Positions 4,346-41,572 of a DNA stretch of 64,000 bases are shown one piece after another. A program made the position numbers and the translations under genes. The DNA comes from Tenacibaculum todarodis. Lineage in GTDB: Bacteria; Bacteroidota; Bacteroidia; Flavobacteriales; Flavobacteriaceae. The notes under the pieces are model-generated. The model was not told the DNA's origin. It did not search any database and was given only the letters and a program-made list of their open reading frames with translations. The stretch covers positions 677,001-741,000 of the forward strand of contig NZ_CP018155.1 of NCBI RefSeq assembly GCF_001889045.1, read 5' to 3'. Numbering within the stretch: the stretch's first letter is position 1; each line of letters starts with the position of its first letter.

Positions 4346-4424
4346 GGGCGTTCGAGCGGGCTTTACGTTATATCTTTTTTGTGAAAAACAAAAAAGGATG
4401 CCACTTCAATCCCTAACGCGGGCG
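4346..4424 (+). repeat. Dispersed structured repeat, copy 1 (short form)
   Basis: The unit begins GGGCGTTCGAGCGGGCTT and ends AATCCCTAACGCGGGCG. It can fold into a long hairpin: GCGTT with AACGC, GGGcTT with AATCCC, and ATCTTTTTT with AAAAAAGGAT. A longer copy occurs at 27185-27353 with the same arrangement. The form is that of REP-like elements mobilised by RAYT transposases; no such transposase is in the window. Confidence 0.65.
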
Positions 4425-4460
4425 TATTTATAAACGTAACAGGATTATTCAGACTAATTG

Positions 4461-12393: not shown

Positions 12394-12401
12394 TACATTT
12401 G
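12394..12401 (+). promoter_or_regulatory. -7 promoter element of the cobalamin riboswitch
   Basis: TACATTTG matches TAnnTTTG. The expected start, near 12406, is exactly where the closing stem of the riboswitch begins. Confidence 0.6.
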
Positions 12402-12405
12402 CGCC

Positions 12406-12578
12406 GATTTTGGTTTTGCATTCAATATTGTTTTGATGCAAATTAAAAGGGAAGTTGGTGTAAAACCAACGCTGTACCCGCAACTGTAAGCTATAAAGCT
12501 TGTAACTAATTCTTTAACCACTGTTTAAAACGGGAAGGTTTTGTTACAAGACGCAAGCCAGGAGACCTGCCAAAAATC
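12406..12578 (+). ncRNA. Cobalamin (vitamin B12) riboswitch
   Basis: The conserved core is clear: GGGAAGTTGGTGTAAAACC, then CGCTGTACCCGCAACTGTAA, and the B12 box GACGCAAGCCAGGAGACCTGCC at 12550-12571 (split here as GACGCAAGCC and AGGAGACCTGCC). GATTTTGG at 12406 and CCAAAAATC at 12570 make the closing P1 stem with one bulge. It lies in the 5' leader of the TonB-dependent receptor gene and should shut it off when adenosylcobalamin is plentiful. A weak hairpin (AAAACTTT with AAAGGTTTT) follows as possible expression platform. Confidence 0.95.
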
Positions 12579-12666
12579 AAACAAAAAGTAAAAAACTTTC
12601 GGGATAAAGGTTTTGGTACGTTGTACTTATTTTTTCCTGATTTTAATTAAATCAAATTTATTAAAA

Positions 12667-23772: not shown

Positions 23773-23795
23773 ATGAAAACGTTCTTTAAAATATT

Positions 23796-24090
23796 AGCAG
23801 ACTTATCTTATCGACTTAAATTTATTTTAAGTAGGAAAGTCCGAACACCAAAGAGTAGCATAGCGGATAACAACCGTCCAACGTAAGTTGAGGACCAGTG
23901 CAACAGAAAGAATGTACAGTTAGGCTGTAGTGAAACCAGGTAAACTCTATGCGGTGCAATGCCATGTATATTAGAAATTGAGAGCTACTCGCTCGATTCT
24001 AAAGGGTAGGCAGATTGAAGTTACGAGTAATTGTAACTCTAGATAAATGATAAGACTTAGACAGGATTCGGCTTATTAGTCTGCTTTTTT
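23796..24090 (+). ncRNA. rnpB: RNase P RNA component, class A
   Basis: The conserved P4 halves and core are present: AGGAAAGTCCGAACACCAAA, GCATAGCGGATAACAACCGT, GTGCAACAGAAAGAATGTAC, GCGGTGCAATGCCATG and the 3' ACAGGATTCGGCTTAT. AGCAGACT at the 5' end pairs with AGTCTGCT at the 3' end (P1), directly followed by TTTTTT. The RNA is the catalytic subunit that trims the 5' ends of tRNA precursors with protein RnpA. A second small palindrome, TTATCAACTTGATAA with a T-run, follows at 24093. Length about 290 nt is in the normal range for Bacteroidota. Confidence 0.93.
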
Positions 24091-24326
24091 ATTATCAACT
24101 TGATAATTTTTTTAAACTTTAATGTAATTTTATTACACTATTCTTTGTTTTTTATGATAAAATATAGAATAATTCATTAATTGAATAGCTTCATTGTTTA
24201 TCTTTTAAAATTCAGAGTAAAAACGTATTTTTGTTCAACAAAAATTAACATAAAATTTACTTTAACATTGCTTTTAAAAATTGTTATTAATTTAATGGGC
24301 ATTTACAGTAATAAAAGATTTCTTAC
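24091..24326 (+). promoter_or_regulatory. acnB leader region with candidate promoter
   Basis: AT-rich spacer without ORF. TATTTTTG at 24226-24233 matches TAnnTTTG and would give a leader of about 90 nt before acnB. No clear -33 element, riboswitch or terminator was seen. Confidence 0.4.
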
Positions 24327-27184: not shown

Positions 27185-27353
27185 GGGGGTTACCACGCCA
27201 AAAAAGGCGCGGTCGGGCTTTATGCTCCAATCTTTTTTTATGCTGAATTTATTTCAGCATCTACTAAATTCATAAGATATTTTATTTTAATAAGAGGTAC
27301 AGAGATAAGTTTATTAAAAAAAAGGATTTCCACGTCAATCCCTAACCCAGGCG
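27185..27353 (+). repeat. Dispersed structured repeat, copy 2 (long form)
   Basis: Same plan as 4346-4424: GGGTT at the left pairs with AACCC at the right (GCGTT/AACGC in copy 1), CGGGCTT faces CAATCCC, and ATCTTTTTTT faces AAAAAAAAGGAT. Extra hairpins are inserted: CGCC-AAAAAA-GGCG at 27197 and TGCTGAAtttaTTTCAGCA at 27241. It fills most of the 411-base gap between the two aconitases. Confidence 0.65.
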
Positions 27354-27515
27354 ATAGTAATTATTGGAAACTAATCGTATTTATTTTTAGTTAAGTTCAA
27401 TCAAAATAACCTATAAAACTATCAATATTAAATATTTTACACTTAAAGAAATAAATAATATATTTTGTATCTTGGGAATTGGAAACAAGTCTAACCTAAA
27501 ATATATAAAATTCTT

Positions 27516-36106: not shown

Positions 36107-37390
36107 TTAAGAATTTAAAAACGCTTTTAATTCGGTATAATTACTAACTTTTGTAGCAACTTTTACTTTATCAATTACAGATTTAATCTGCTCAGGAATT
36201 TCAACAGTTACAGGCAATGTTTCCTCAACAATATCTAAAAACTTTACAGGATGTGCAGTTTCTAAAAATACACCAAAATCAGTATCGGCTAAATTGTATT
36301 TTTTTAAACCTAAATATCCAACAGCACCGTGTGGATCTGTAACATAACCAGAAGTTTTATAAATTTCTTTCATAGCTTTTTTAGTTGCTTCATCTGTAAA
36401 AGAATACGAGGCAAAAGCTTGTTTTAATTTTTCTGTATTGTTACCAAACAATTCTTGAATTCTGATAAAATTACTTGGATTACCAACATCCATAGCGTTA
36501 GAGATAGTAGCTTTAGATGGTTTTGGATCGTATTTTTCAGTTGCTAAAAAGTTAGGAACTGTATCGTTTATATTGGTTGAAGCAACAAAATGTTTTACTG
36601 GTAAACCTAATTTTTGAGCCATAATTCCGGCACAAATATTTCCAAAATTTCCACTTGGTACAGAAAAAACGATGTCTTTATGTTTTTTGTGCAATTGCTT
36701 ATACGCAAAGAAAAAATAGAACATTTGTGGCAACCAACGTGCAATATTTATTGAGTTAGCTGATGTTAACGTTTTAGAAATTTCAGTATCTAAAAAAGCA
36801 GTTTTTACCATTTCTTGACAATCATCAAAAACACCATCAACTTCTAATGCTTTAATATTTTGTCCTAAAGTAGTTAATTGCTTTTCTTGAATATCACTAA
36901 CTTTTCCGCTTGGATATAAAATAACAACTTCTACGCCTTTAACACCTAAAAATCCGCTTGCAACAGCACCTCCAGTATCTCCAGAAGTAGCAACTAAAAC
37001 AGTAACTTTATCTTCATTATTCTTATTAAAATACGCTAAACAACGCGCCATAAAACGTGCGCCAACATCTTTAAAAGCCATTGTTGGTCCGTGAAACAAC
37101 TCTAATGCACCAATGTTTTCTTCGACATTAACAATAGGAAAATCGAAAGTCAAGGTTTCATCAATAATATTTTTTAAAACTTCTGTAGGAATCTCATCTC
37201 CAACAAATTGTTTGATAGCTTCATACGCAATTTCTTCGTTAGAATAATTGGCAATATTTTTAATAAAATCACTAGCAATAGGAGTGATGCTCTCTGGGAA
37301 ATACAAACCTCTATCAGGCGCTAAACCGTTAACTACAGCACTTTTAAAGCTTACTTTTGGTGATTTATGATTAAGACTATAATACTTCAT
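36107..37390 (-). CDS. thrC: Threonine synthase
   Basis: 427 residues, PLP-dependent. The start YYSLNHKSPKVSFKSAVVNGLAPDRGLYFPE is the thrC type I signature; the cofactor Lys is in HGPTMAFKDVGARFMARC and the phosphate loop in ATSGDTGGAVASGFLG. It turns O-phosphohomoserine into threonine. Last gene of thrA-thrB-thrC; a 160-base spacer with a palindromic repeat separates it from thrB, so some independent control is possible. Confidence 0.95.
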   Translation of the reverse strand: MKYYSLNHKSPKVSFKSAVVNGLAPDRGLYFPESITPIASDFIKNIANYSNEEIAYEAIKQFVGDEIPTEVLKNIIDETLTFDFPIVNVEENIGALELFHGPTMAFKDVGARFMARCLAYFNKNNEDKVTVLVATSGDTGGAVASGFLGVKGVEVVILYPSGKVSDIQEKQLTTLGQNIKALEVDGVFDDCQEMVKTAFLDTEISKTLTSANSINIARWLPQMFYFFFAYKQLHKKHKDIVFSVPSGNFGNICAGIMAQKLGLPVKHFVASTNINDTVPNFLATEKYDPKPSKATISNAMDVGNPSNFIRIQELFGNNTEKLKQAFASYSFTDEATKKAMKEIYKTSGYVTDPHGAVGYLGLKKYNLADTDFGVFLETAHPVKFLDIVEETLPVTVEIPEQIKSVIDKVKVATKVSNYTELKAFLNS

Positions 37391-37426
37391 TTTTAATATT
37401 TAATTACGATTTTTTAAACTTCCATT

Positions 37427-37493
37427 GTCATTCCTGCGAAAGCAGGAATCCATACAAACTTAATTATAGATTCCTGCCTTCGCAGGAATGACA
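37427..37493. repeat. Palindromic repeat within the thr operon
   Basis: TGTCATTCCTGCGAAAGCAGGAATC is mirrored by GATTCCTGCCTTCGCAGGAATGACA (each written here across the two arms, each under 26 bases; the core is TTCCTGCGAAAGCAGGAA). Each arm is itself a small hairpin. A single arm recurs at 41639-41664. Confidence 0.7.
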
Positions 37494-37550
37494 AATAATT
37501 CTCAAAAAACACTTTTTATAGAAAACTATGGGTTTAAAATATTCGTTGAT

Positions 37551-38480
37551 TTATCTTTCTTCTAAAATTTTTATTCCTTCTGTATTAATTTTTGAACGAT
37601 GCATATTAAAATCGATTTTTATATTTTTATATGCATTTTCAATTGATGCAAACACATCGTTTGCAATAGTATCTCCTTTACACAACGCAAAAATTGTAGG
37701 TCCTGCGCCAGAAATTCCAGCACCCAAAGCACCTGCTTTTAAAGCTTCGCTTTTAACTACATCAAAATGCGGAATTAAATGTTTACGAGCAGGTTCTACT
37801 ATAATATCTGTTAACGAGTTAGATATTAGCTCGTAATTTTCAGTATGTAAACCGCTAATTAATCCGGCTAAATTAGCCCATTGTGTAATTGCACTTTTTA
37901 AAGGTACTTCTTTTGGTAAAACGTCTCTAGAATCTTTTGTTTTAACTTCCACTTGTGGGTGAATTGCAACAACTCTTAATTCTGTTGGAACAGGAATTTT
38001 AATAATATCCAAAGGTTCGTAACTTCTAACTAAAACAAAACCACCGTAAATAGCCGCAGAAACATTGTCTGCAATTGCACTTCCGCAAGCAGTTTCTTCG
38101 CCAATCATAGCAAATTTTGTTAACTCTAATTGAGAAAACGGATTTCCTAAAAACTGATTTACACCAAAAGCGGCACCAGCAGCACTTGCCGCGCTACTTC
38201 CTAAACCGCTTCCGGGAGAAAAACCTTTGTGCATTGTCATTTCTATTCCAAAATCTACAGGATGTTTTTCTAACATTGCTAAAGCAACAGCACCTGCAGC
38301 ATTTTCTTTTGCGTTTAAAGGTAAATTAGCGCCTGTTATTTCAGTAATTCTAACACCTTTTTCTTCGGTTTTAGTAAAAGTCATTTCGTCACCAACGGAG
38401 TCAATTGCTAAACCTAACGAATCAAATCCGCAGGAAACATTTGCTACAGTTGCAGGAGAAAATATTTTTAAATACTTCAT
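37551..38480 (-). CDS. thrB: Homoserine kinase
   Basis: 309 residues of the GHMP kinase family. The ATP loop is HKGFSPGSGLGSSAASAAG, the N-terminus IFSPATVANVSCGFDSLGLA binds homoserine, and the C-terminal AGALGAGISGAGPTIFALC is GHMP motif 3. It phosphorylates homoserine for ThrC. Three bases separate it from the thrA stop, so the two are co-translated. Confidence 0.95.
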   Translation of the reverse strand: MKYLKIFSPATVANVSCGFDSLGLAIDSVGDEMTFTKTEEKGVRITEITGANLPLNAKENAAGAVALAMLEKHPVDFGIEMTMHKGFSPGSGLGSSAASAAGAAFGVNQFLGNPFSQLELTKFAMIGEETACGSAIADNVSAAIYGGFVLVRSYEPLDIIKIPVPTELRVVAIHPQVEVKTKDSRDVLPKEVPLKSAITQWANLAGLISGLHTENYELISNSLTDIIVEPARKHLIPHFDVVKSEALKAGALGAGISGAGPTIFALCKGDTIANDVFASIENAYKNIKIDFNMHRSKINTEGIKILEER

Positions 38481-38483
38481 TTT

Positions 38484-40925
38484 TTAGTTCTTTCCAATTC
38501 TAATTACATCCGCAAAAATACCAGAAGCAGTAACTTCTGCACCAGCTCCAGCACCTTTTATTAATAATGGATTTACGGGATATCTTTCTGTGAAAAATAA
38601 CACAATATTATCACTTCCTTCTAAATTATAAAAAGGATGATCTGATGGAATATGTTGTAAACCAACTGATGCTTTACCGTTTTCAAAAGTTGCCACGTAT
38701 TTTAAACGACAATCTTTGTCATTCGCTTCTTTGTAGATATTCTGAAAATGAGCTTCAGATGCTGTTAAAGATGCGTAAAAATCGTCATTATTAGTTGTTT
38801 TAAGGCTTTTTTCTGGTAAAAATGAGTTGTTATCAATATCAGAAAGCTCTAATTCGTATCCGCTTTCACGCGCTAAGATTAAAATTTTTCTTGCAACGTC
38901 AATTCCACTTAAATCTATCTTTGGATCTGGTTCTGTGAAACCTTCTTTTTGAGCTTGTGCAACAACATCATGGAAAGTAGTATTTTCATTAAAATTATTG
39001 AAAACAAAATTTAAACTTCCCGATAAGACTGCTTGTATTTTATGGATTCTATCTCCAGAAGCAATTAAGTTTTTTAAGGTGTCAATTACAGGTAAACCTG
39101 CACCAACATTAGTTTCAAACAAGAAAGGAGCATTAAATTTACGCGATACTCTTTTAAGTGTCTTGTAATTATCTAAATTAGAGGCACAAGCAATTTTGTT
39201 ACAAGTTACTACGCCAATATTTTGTTCTAAATAATTTTGATAAACCTCCGAAACGTTTTTGTTAGCTGTGTTGTCTACAAATACTGAGTTACGTAAGTTT
39301 AATGCTTTAGTCTTATTAAAAAAGGCATCTAAAGATGTTTGTTCCCCATTTTCTAAGGCTTCTTTCCAATTTGTTAAATCTAGACCGTCTTCATTAAAAG
39401 TCATTTTTCTAGAATTAGAAATTCCAACTACTCTTATATTCAGTTTTAAATATTCTTTTAAATAGGTTGCTTGTTTATGAATTTGTGCTAAAAAACGCTC
39501 ACCAACATTACCAACACCCGTAACGAATAAGTTTAACTGTTTTATATTTTCTTCAAAAAATTGTTCGTGAAGCGTGTTTAAAGCTTTTTTTGCATCAACA
39601 CTATTAATTACAGCTGAGATATTTTTTTCAGAAGCTCCTTGGGCAATTGCTCTAACGTTTACGTTGTTTTTTCCTAAAGAACTAAACATTCTCCCACTTA
39701 AACCTTGGTGATTTTTCATGTTATCACCAACCAAAGCTATAATTGCTAAGTTTTGTTCAACAATAACAGGATTTACTTTATGCCTTTCAATTTCAAAAGC
39801 AAAAGTTTCATTGATGCTTTCTGCTGCTTTATTTGCATCTTTATCAAAAACACCAATACAGATTGAATGTTCTGAAGAAGCTTGTGTAATTAAAACTACG
39901 TTTATATTTTCAACAGATAATGTTTCAAAAACACGTTTAGAAACACCTGAAACACCAATCATTCCGCTTCCTTCTAAAGTAAGTAATGTTATGTTTTCAA
40001 TATGGCTAATCCCTTTAACACTGGTTTTGCTGTTGGTTTTATCAGTAATTAAAGTTCCATTTTGTTCAGGTTGAAAAGTATTCTTAATTAGAATCGGTAT
40101 TTTCTTTTCTAATGTTGGTTGAATTGTTGGTGGATAAATAACTTTTGCGCCAAAATGAGACAATTCCATTGCTTCTTGATATGAAATATGCGGAATTGGA
40201 AATGCTTGTTTTACAACAGATGGATTTGCAGTGTACATTCCACTAACGTCTGTCCAAATTTGTAATTCTTCAGCATTTAAAGAAGCCGCATAAATAGCCG
40301 CAGAATAATCTGAACCTCCACGACCTAACGTAGTTGATTGCCCATTTTCTGTATTTGCTATAAAACCAGGTAATAATGTTACTTGGTTATTGTTATTTTT
40401 AAAGAAATCTTGACAATTTTTCTCTGTTAATTTAAAATTAACTTGTGCATTTTCGAAACTGTTAGATGTTATAATTAACTCTCTACTATCTTTATAACCC
40501 GCATCTATTTCGTTTTTTGCAGCTTCAGAAATTATGTAAGAAGATAAAAGTTCACCAAAACCACTAATAGTTGCTAATGTTTTAGGTGTAATTTCTTCTA
40601 ATAAGAAACAACCTTGTAGTAAAATTTCTAGTTTAGAAAATAATTTTTCGACCTTGGTTTTAACCTCATCTTGTCTTTCAGTTGCAATTAAATCTGCAAT
40701 AACTTGAAGATGGTGTTGTTTAACCTCATTAAAAAGAGAAGTATAGTTAGTATCTTTTCTAGCTGCTTGTTCTGCAGCAGCAATTAACTTGTTTGTAGTT
40801 TTTCCGAAAGCGGAAACAACTACTAATACTTTATCTTTTTGTGCTGTTTGTTTAACAACTTGTAAAACTTGTTGTATTGTTTGAGAACTGGCTACGGATG
40901 AACCTCCGAATTTTAAAACTTTCAT
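38484..40925 (-). CDS. thrA: Bifunctional aspartokinase I / homoserine dehydrogenase
   Basis: 813 residues. Residues 1-290 are the aspartokinase (VLKFGGSSVASSQ, LGRGGSDYSAAIYAASLNAEELQIWTDVSGMYTANP); about 310-455 hold two ACT domains (GMIGVSGVSKRVFETLSVENINVVLITQASSE) for threonine feedback; the rest is homoserine dehydrogenase (NLFVTGVGNVGERFLAQI, NKIACASNLDNYKTL, GGVGAGLPVIDTL-like NVGAGLPVIDTLKNLIASGD, GFTEPDPKIDLSGIDVARKILILARESG). It catalyses the first and third steps from aspartate to threonine. A leader with a threonine-rich peptide precedes it. Confidence 0.95.
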   Translation of the reverse strand: MKVLKFGGSSVASSQTIQQVLQVVKQTAQKDKVLVVVSAFGKTTNKLIAAAEQAARKDTNYTSLFNEVKQHHLQVIADLIATERQDEVKTKVEKLFSKLEILLQGCFLLEEITPKTLATISGFGELLSSYIISEAAKNEIDAGYKDSRELIITSNSFENAQVNFKLTEKNCQDFFKNNNNQVTLLPGFIANTENGQSTTLGRGGSDYSAAIYAASLNAEELQIWTDVSGMYTANPSVVKQAFPIPHISYQEAMELSHFGAKVIYPPTIQPTLEKKIPILIKNTFQPEQNGTLITDKTNSKTSVKGISHIENITLLTLEGSGMIGVSGVSKRVFETLSVENINVVLITQASSEHSICIGVFDKDANKAAESINETFAFEIERHKVNPVIVEQNLAIIALVGDNMKNHQGLSGRMFSSLGKNNVNVRAIAQGASEKNISAVINSVDAKKALNTLHEQFFEENIKQLNLFVTGVGNVGERFLAQIHKQATYLKEYLKLNIRVVGISNSRKMTFNEDGLDLTNWKEALENGEQTSLDAFFNKTKALNLRNSVFVDNTANKNVSEVYQNYLEQNIGVVTCNKIACASNLDNYKTLKRVSRKFNAPFLFETNVGAGLPVIDTLKNLIASGDRIHKIQAVLSGSLNFVFNNFNENTTFHDVVAQAQKEGFTEPDPKIDLSGIDVARKILILARESGYELELSDIDNNSFLPEKSLKTTNNDDFYASLTASEAHFQNIYKEANDKDCRLKYVATFENGKASVGLQHIPSDHPFYNLEGSDNIVLFFTERYPVNPLLIKGAGAGAEVTASGIFADVIRIGKN

Positions 40926-41035
40926 TTTAAATATTTATTGATAATTGTTATTGTTTTTTTTACTAGCCTATGGTTATTTGCCTTCGTTTGAAAGTATAAT
41001 GTTGACCTAAAGTTTATATGAAATTAATTACACCC
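40926..41035 (-). promoter_or_regulatory. thrA leader downstream of the leader peptide
   Basis: Untranslated RNA of about 110 nt between the leader-peptide stop and thrA. A stem AATTACCCTT / AAGGGTGTAATT (one bulged G) spans the leader stop codon. No hairpin with a U-run was found, so a classical Rho-independent attenuator is not evident; a Rho-dependent or translational mechanism would have to be assumed. Confidence 0.45.
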
Positions 41036-41083
41036 TTAAAGGGTAATTGTAGAAATTGTGATAATAGTAATACGCCCAATCAT
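41036..41083 (-). CDS. thrL: thr operon leader peptide (15 residues)
   Basis: Minus-strand ORF too short for gene finders: MIGRITIITISTITL followed by TAA. Four of 15 residues are Thr and six are Ile, in a nearly unbroken run. It lies about 110 bases before thrA and some 40 bases after a good promoter. This is the composition of thr operon attenuators in Enterobacteria (thrL, also Thr plus Ile), where scarcity of charged tRNA-Thr or tRNA-Ile stalls the ribosome and raises operon expression. Nothing else in the spacer codes. The terminating structure is unclear. Confidence 0.8.
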   Translation of the reverse strand: MIGRITIITISTITL

Positions 41084-41129
41084 TATGATTGAGTTAGAAG
41101 TGTTTGTATTTTTATTAACGTTCACGCTT

Positions 41130-41137
41130 CAAATGTA
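41130..41137 (-). promoter_or_regulatory. -7 promoter element of the thr operon
   Basis: Minus-strand TACATTTG is a perfect TAnnTTTG. The start would be near 41124, giving a leader of about 200 nt with the leader peptide starting 40 nt in. Confidence 0.6.
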
Positions 41138-41212
41138 AATTATATTTAACAAAAAGACTATTCTTTTGAAAAATAATTTACGAAAACGTTTTAGATGATA
41201 AGAATTAGCAAT

Positions 41213-41572
41213 TTAATTGCTCTTTATTGTAATATTTTTTATTGTTGAAGTACTATCGCAGCGAATAATGTATAAGTCTAACTTTTTTCCAGTAACATAA
41301 TATTCTGGACAAGGTTTTATACGTGCTTTACTTTTACCAAAATTAACATCGCCATTTTCTAAAACTGTAGCTATTTGAAGACTGTCAATATTATGTTTTG
41401 CCATTGTTAACTTAGCTTCGTCAGAATATAAACGTTCTCTTATACGTATTGTTTTTAGCGTACGCGCATCCATTCCGTAATTAAAAGTAACATCTTTTTT
41501 TGTCCAAAAGAAGTAAACAATTAAAGAACCAAGTGATAAACCAATTAAGTAATAAAAAAACCTTTTAAGCAT
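41213..41572 (-). CDS. DUF4258-type small membrane-anchored protein
   Basis: 119 residues: one N-terminal membrane segment (5-22, FFYYLIGLSLGSLIVYFFW), then a small domain with YGMDARTLKTIRIRERLYSDEAKLTM and ENGDVNFGKSKARIKPCPEYYV. I associate the DAR-x-LK-x-IR pattern with DUF4258-annotated flavobacterial proteins. Two Cys (CPEYY, RCDS) may form a disulfide outside the cytoplasm. Function unknown. Its stop is about 75 bases upstream of the thr promoter box, and it may be the last gene of an ald-linked group, though a palindromic repeat separates it from ald. Confidence 0.6.
   Translation of the reverse strand: MLKRFFYYLIGLSLGSLIVYFFWTKKDVTFNYGMDARTLKTIRIRERLYSDEAKLTMAKHNIDSLQIATVLENGDVNFGKSKARIKPCPEYYVTGKKLDLYIIRCDSTSTIKNITIKSN

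Follow-up and report, generated by a model that had tools for sequence, protein, structure and literature searches.

On the minus strand of a 64,000-nucleotide (nt) stretch of the Tenacibaculum todarodis genome (contig NZ_CP018155.1, positions 677,001 to 741,000; hereafter the window, whose first letter is position 1), thrA, thrB and thrC lie consecutively and make up the threonine operon. The original prediction, made from the letters of this DNA, had placed a Thr/Ile-rich leader peptide ahead of thrABC, and the NCBIfam names of the three downstream genes bear out that placement. Sequence comparisons strongly support such a peptide, and support a common anatomy in which a run of Thr and Ile codons leads into a hairpin around the stop codon (hairpin B), followed by a conserved motif (motif M) and, in the group of leaders to which the window belongs, by a further hairpin (hairpin C). 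At this locus lie a small gene missing from the annotation and a conserved RNA element for which Rfam has no match; the Thr_leader model (RF00506) gave no match in the whole window at its gathering threshold, and none up to an E value of 10 within 40900–41200. The features, with the basis for each in brackets, are as follows.

41137–41130, minus strand: −7 box TACATTTG, of consensus TAnnTTTG (sequence; position of the box in Flavobacterium psychrophilum; spacing common to relatives).
41125–41036, minus strand: putative leader open reading frame (ORF) of 29 codons with GTG start and TAA stop, MNVNKNTNTSNSIIMIGRITIITISTITL (sequence, conservation, spacing between GTG and box).
41125–41058, minus strand: predicted stem I, in which stretches of 41125–41106 pair with stretches of 41073–41058 (minimum free energy (MFE) fold, partner swaps).
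41093–41075, minus strand: predicted hairpin A, CTCAATCA-TAA-TGATTGGG, inside stem I and holding ATG 41083 (MFE fold).
41074–41039, minus strand: Thr/Ile codon run RITIITISTITL, with Thr or Ile in 9 of the last 12 codons (sequence, frame counts).
41044–41032, minus strand: predicted hairpin B, ACCCT-TTA-AGGGT, at the stop codon of the leader (fold, conservation).
41020–41006, minus strand: motif M, here CATATAAACTTTAGG, family consensus ATATnCTCCG (conservation).
40999–40974, minus strand: predicted AU-rich hairpin C (fold, partner swaps, pair counts).
40925–38484, minus strand: thrA, bifunctional aspartate kinase/homoserine dehydrogenase I (NCBIfam).
38480–37551, minus strand: thrB, homoserine kinase (NCBIfam).
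37390–36107, minus strand: thrC, threonine synthase (NCBIfam).

The case for the peptide is built on 244 non-redundant regions upstream of thrA, comprising the window, 80 named loci, 42 regions found on searching 197 genomes of the class, 46 of which had a match, and 128 regions obtained likewise from 219 family genomes, at least 182 of which had a match, minus seven duplicates. A finder that required an ORF with at least four Thr or Ile in 12 codons near its stop, together with a GC hairpin at that stop, and that accepted candidates above a combined score, matched 196 of the 244. A Thr/Ile-rich peptide was thereby found in 186 of the 205 Flavobacteriaceae regions, the window included, which is the conservation that the original prediction had named as its own check, and in 10 of the 39 regions from other Bacteroidia. 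On reverse strands the same finder matched 9 of 244, and on dinucleotide shuffles 2 of 732; since its threshold was set on the same 244 regions, it is these controls that carry the weight of the conservation result. In the 186 family leaders, Thr and Ile account on average for 7.03 of the 12 codons preceding the hairpin when these are read in frame, and for 0.55 and 0.32 when they are read in either of the other frames; Thr occurs about twice as often as Ile in the runs (867 vs. 440). Conservation of both the run and its reading frame points to sensing by the ribosome.

A covariance model describing the Thr run, hairpin B, motif M and hairpin C, made from 36 sequences and trained on the window and its close relatives, matched 21 of 39 genomes, once in each. 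All of these, the window's included, belong to the 24 genomes of the window's own genus. The three congeneric genomes without a match comprise a complete one of 2.6 megabases (G131) and two incomplete ones (67 % and 71 %). In G131 the searches brought up neither this thrA nor the leader, and the nearest relative there has 38 % identity. Twelve of the 21 matches were fetched, and all of them lie just before thrA, with hairpin B 107–129 nt upstream. Among the 80 of 363 loci encoding a relative, the nearest thrA genes are those of Tenacibaculum, at no more than 79 % identity, followed by those of Polaribacter.

The extent of the ORF calls for revision. The original prediction drew it as 15 codons, 41083–41036 on the minus strand, encoding MIGRITIITISTITL; that sequence is present, but its start codon and length are probably wrong, as the frame, of whose 29 codons it makes up the 3′ half, stays open upstream as far as a GTG at 41125. 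The ATG at 41083, moreover, falls in the loop and first pairs of predicted hairpin A. The promoter box announced 40 nt upstream of that ATG was recovered, as TACATTTG, at a distance of 46 nt. In F. psychrophilum the TAnnTTTG box is reported to occupy positions −12 to −5 (PMC9723704), so the predicted transcription start falls on 41125, where the GTG begins. The spacing between this GTG and the box equals that of the start codon in many relatives. The leaders fall into four main groups: the window's own, of 70 leaders, in which the peptide ends in L, TR or TP and the stop codon mostly lies in the hairpin loop, and the groups ..PLG/LWG* (51 leaders), ..WGC* (46 leaders) and ..FGV*, written below as PLG/LWG, WGC and FGV. 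In the window's group, 63 of the 70 leaders have the box and an in-frame ATG or GTG, and 49 of those 63 start 4 or 5 nt past the box; GTG at a spacing of 4 is found in 27 leaders, the window included. Start-to-box spacing in the remaining groups peaks at 16 to 22 nt. Over the 173 family leaders with a box, counting ATG or GTG in any frame, the spacing is 4–5 in 53, 16–22 in 107 and 2 in 16. GTG 41125, rather than ATG 41083, is most likely the true start of the ORF, and the leader mRNA is predicted to be leaderless, with transcription starting on or beside this codon. Leaderless mRNAs are a minority in flavobacteria: for F. psychrophilum they are given as 5.5 % of the mRNAs examined (PMC9723704), and 87 % of the predicted transcripts of F. 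johnsoniae are reported to carry leaders longer than 10 nt (PMC6847099).

The chief structural element of the leader is hairpin B. A hairpin spanning the stop codon had been predicted, and the TAA (41038–41036) indeed lies in the loop and first pair of B, the MFE register having the whole TAA in the loop, while the 5′ arm of B is made of the last Thr codons of the leader. In 73 of the 196 leaders the stop codon overlaps the B loop; in the other 123 it lies in or past the 3′ arm. Outside the family, inspection by eye places the stop in the loop in five leaders (L088, L089, L106, L111 and L114) and past the arm in four (L095, L100, L120 and L123). The arms in Flavobacteriaceae mostly read ACCC(C)/(G)GGGT and are exchanged in some other Bacteroidia families, as in CGGG-GTAA-CCCG (L106) and CCCGG-TAA-CCGGG (L089), so it seems to be the structure of B, and not its sequence alone, that is kept. 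RNAalifold, run on A1 and A2, returned hairpin B as its sole structure.

Around hairpin B, the predicted fold includes three further helices. Stem I joins the beginning of the Thr/Ile run to the start codon, and gave a partner-swap signal of 14.3 standard deviations (sd) in the 70 leaders of the window's group, compared with 6.6 sd for hairpin A and 13.1 sd for hairpin C, in which five of seven pairs have changed on both sides. Stem I and hairpin C are supported in the 46 leaders of the WGC group as well. Taken together over 36 sequences, hairpins B and C have a covariation score of 0.257, as against 0.012–0.047 for slid structures. Between B and C lies motif M, of which five columns exceed 1 bit and for which pairing tests in the window's group found no covarying partner.

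Conservation without a partner is what a protein-binding site might look like, and motif M together with hairpin C could bind a protein, the leader peptide merely modulating the binding. The genomic distribution of the motif fits such a site: in the form TATATATTCTTCRGG it has six exact matches in 100 genomes, five of them just before thrA. The same count, made for that one form, does not support M as a general module. There is no candidate protein, however, and the conserved Thr/Ile run and frame point to the ribosome as the sensor, which makes a protein switch very unlikely. A pairing of motif M with the 5′ part of the leader drew a z of −5.1 when partners were swapped across all 186 family leaders, and values within groups of −2.5 (PLG/LWG), −2.6 (WGC), −0.1 (FGV) and 0.3 (the window's group). 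One pair of sequence windows reached 4.0 sd in the PLG/LWG group, where ACGGAC:GUCCGU is seen in part of the 51 leaders and may reflect common descent; this pairing is a lead only. An antiterminator formed by the G strand of B and motif M was rejected, the real pairs being 0.29 to 1.19 kcal/mol weaker than those with shuffled M in the four main groups.

The absence of an obvious U-run terminator, already remarked upon in the original prediction, extends well beyond the window. Between B and thrA, no such terminator was found in 168 of the 186 family leaders, the window included, and this tells against classical intrinsic attenuation, in which B or another hairpin would terminate weakly by means of an imperfect U-rich tract. 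The remaining 18 leaders do score in this interval, 17 of them because a T-rich stretch directly follows B and one (L189) by virtue of a separate hairpin, and these are the leaders to which such a terminator can appeal. It can appeal also to U-run hairpins outside the family, scored by script in one of the 10 leaders with a B hairpin (L120) and in the differently built L108, and noted by eye in L089 and L114. When the whole 420 nt upstream were taken, the criterion was reached by 26 of 186 thr leaders as against 19 of 30 ilvD regions of the family. The latter were 30 fetched from among 44 genomes with a match, together with the window's own, one region without a usable start having been dropped. 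Because 19 of these 30 score, the host genome's own among them, the finder evidently works in these genomes, although it can miss bulged or very short stems. A mechanistic objection is added to the statistical one: B would be melted by a ribosome sitting on the stop codon, at the very moment when termination is called for. Intrinsic attenuation is, on this evidence, unlikely.

Three of the leaders that came to light in this comparison are of interest in their own right. L126, the leader before ilvD in the same genome (G000:C1, ilvD at 2532603), reads by eye as a classical-looking, Ile/Val-rich peptide, MRKQIINIISIIVIVIFLQG, from a GTG. It has a U-run terminator in the form GGCTTCCT-loop-AGGAAGCC, and an alternative pairing at the stop codon, TAGGAAG:CTTCCTA, is discernible by eye. 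Like the predicted thr leader, it is a GTG-started peptide before a biosynthesis gene; of the two, a U-run was found only in L126. In L108, from another Bacteroidia family, a thr leader (STIIITIIITTG...) has a classical U-run terminator downstream and in this differs from the leaders with a B hairpin. L089 is of the B type, and the 3′ strand of its B, CGGGCTGC, is complementary to GCAGCCCG, which starts a downstream terminator-like hairpin, a possible trp-like antiterminator.

If transcription were not the step controlled, translation might be: the leader RNA would mask the thrA start and stalling would free it, an alternative that the original prediction had also entertained. Efficient initiation in F. 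johnsoniae is reported to go with low structure near the start codon (PMC6847099), and translation attenuation is said to govern the Cys genes of mycobacteria (PMC13236596). Partner swaps, however, did not support a masked thrA start: in the three groups tested, leader segments paired with the 36-nt stretch that ends at the start codon no better than swapped partners did (z −1.8 to +3.8). The distance is also considerable, with a median of 93 nt from the end of the hairpin loop to the thrA ATG. Translational masking accordingly appears quite unlikely.

We consider it reasonably probable, judging from sequence and comparison, that the region is a ribosome-read leader-peptide attenuator of thrABC, probably operating without a U-run hairpin, with Rho as the best guess for the terminating factor. 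Transcription is predicted to begin on or beside the GTG of the 29-codon ORF, and a ribosome would trail the polymerase from there. Were charged Thr- or Ile-tRNA scarce, the ribosome would stall in the Thr/Ile run, its footprint covering the 3′ strand of stem I together with the 5′ strand of B and keeping both helices open, and thrABC would be expressed. With Thr and Ile plentiful, the ribosome would reach the stop codon inside B, cover B and then release, whereupon stem I and B would close and most transcripts would, by the geometry and by the example of other attenuators, end before thrA. The terminating step is probably something other than a U-run hairpin. Conceivably, Rho acts on the G-poor, C-biased RNA past B, with motif M as a putative pause or loading site. 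In the 186 family leaders the spacer after B contains 16.7 % C and 7.2 % G, compared with 13.0 % C and 11.5 % G in 99 other upstream regions of the 80 named loci; 7 % of these 99 regions reach the mean C-over-G bias of the leaders. A broader proposal, which is possible though we regard it as doubtful, would make this a bacteroidial thr attenuator, widespread in the class, whose terminator has been replaced: the stop codon of the sensing ORF (leaderless in the window's group) would lie in an obligate hairpin, and the conserved, single-stranded M about 15–25 nt later would serve as the pause site or Rho site by which release of the ribosome is converted into termination.

Several observations weigh against the attenuator as proposed for the window. 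No finder match was obtained in 19 of the 205 Flavobacteriaceae regions; these include one with 94 nt of upstream sequence only (L031) and three sub-threshold cases in which the hairpin is visible (L163, L176 and L248). The pair types of B and C together are not above those of shuffles (14 vs. 12.8, a value reached in 111 of 500), and the partner-swap tests leave shared ancestry in. The 51 leaders of the PLG/LWG group give no support to stem I (z +3.5), and hairpin C is not seen in them at the corresponding position (z −0.1); another offset yielded a signal, at 3.6 sd a weaker one. The window's own leader does not fold clearly better than its shuffles (z −0.97). Folding for alternative stems, recommended at the outset, did predict stem I and hairpins A, B and C, but a mutually exclusive antiterminator pairing was not found in the window's group. 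As to Rho, the evidence is compositional, the C-over-G bias of the spacer being compatible with it as a best guess, and a stalled upstream ribosome would not obviously shield the spacer from it.

Attenuation is a textbook mechanism that is best studied in a few model bacteria. In the enterobacterial thr leader (thrL; Rfam Thr_leader, RF00506), a Thr/Ile-rich peptide likewise precedes thrABC, its stop codon lies beside structure, and the expected logic is the same. The Tenacibaculum leader differs in that no U-run terminator and antiterminator were found, in its stop codon inside a conserved hairpin, in its predicted leaderless start and in the lack of an Rfam match.

Within the family, leader-peptide attenuation of amino-acid operons has already been published in general terms: transcriptome and structure data from F. 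psychrophilum gave strong clues for it, with structured elements ahead of pheA and hisG (PMC9723704). The main text of that article contains neither thrA nor threonine, and no mention of a leaderless leader ORF, of hairpin B or of a missing terminator was found. In the same phylum, small ORFs in long 5′ untranslated regions of Bacteroides thetaiotaomicron have been described as reminiscent of attenuation leader peptides (PMC7366714), again with no occurrence of thrA or threonine in the main text. Actinobacterial Cys leader peptides have a run of the regulated codon near the stop and no terminator hairpin, and Rho has been proposed for them (PMC1262725); a title by Canestrari (2020), as cited in PMC13236596, mentions leaderless ORFs. 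They belong to another phylum and another amino acid, and their possible Rho motifs are reportedly not conserved, whereas motif M is. The transcript of Sinorhizobium trpL is reported to start at the leader start codon (PMC7298713). Corynebacterium ilvBNC, also discussed as leaderless, has a three-hairpin model with a terminator hairpin (PMC11857589), unlike the thr leader, in which no U-run terminator was found. In PMC2864571, as far as its text was accessible, attenuators figure in one reference title only. The literature searched, which did not reach subscription papers and supplements, contained no report of a thr leader peptide in Bacteroidota. Since flavobacterial attenuation, leaderless attenuators and terminator-less leaders with Rho proposed have all been reported already, the thr leader is not a new kind of switch. 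A family-wide leader in a phylum without Shine–Dalgarno sequences, and mostly without a U-run terminator, would nonetheless be a natural test of the coupling between ribosome release and termination. The predicted leaderless start in one group adds to its interest, and a built-in classical comparison is at hand in the genome's own ilvD leader.

Immediately upstream of the thr leader, on the minus strand at 41213–41572, is an ORF of 119 amino acids (aa) without an NCBIfam match. Elsewhere in the same genome, an aspartokinase locus (L003) has an adjacent ORF that extends right up to the gene, and a paralogue (L002) lies within a longer open frame of 1133 aa. The window further contains two Flavo-1 RNA matches with scores above gathering (4350–4428 and 27207–27357, minus strand), a cobalamin riboswitch (12394–12588, plus strand) and a class A RNase P RNA (23794–24091, plus strand).

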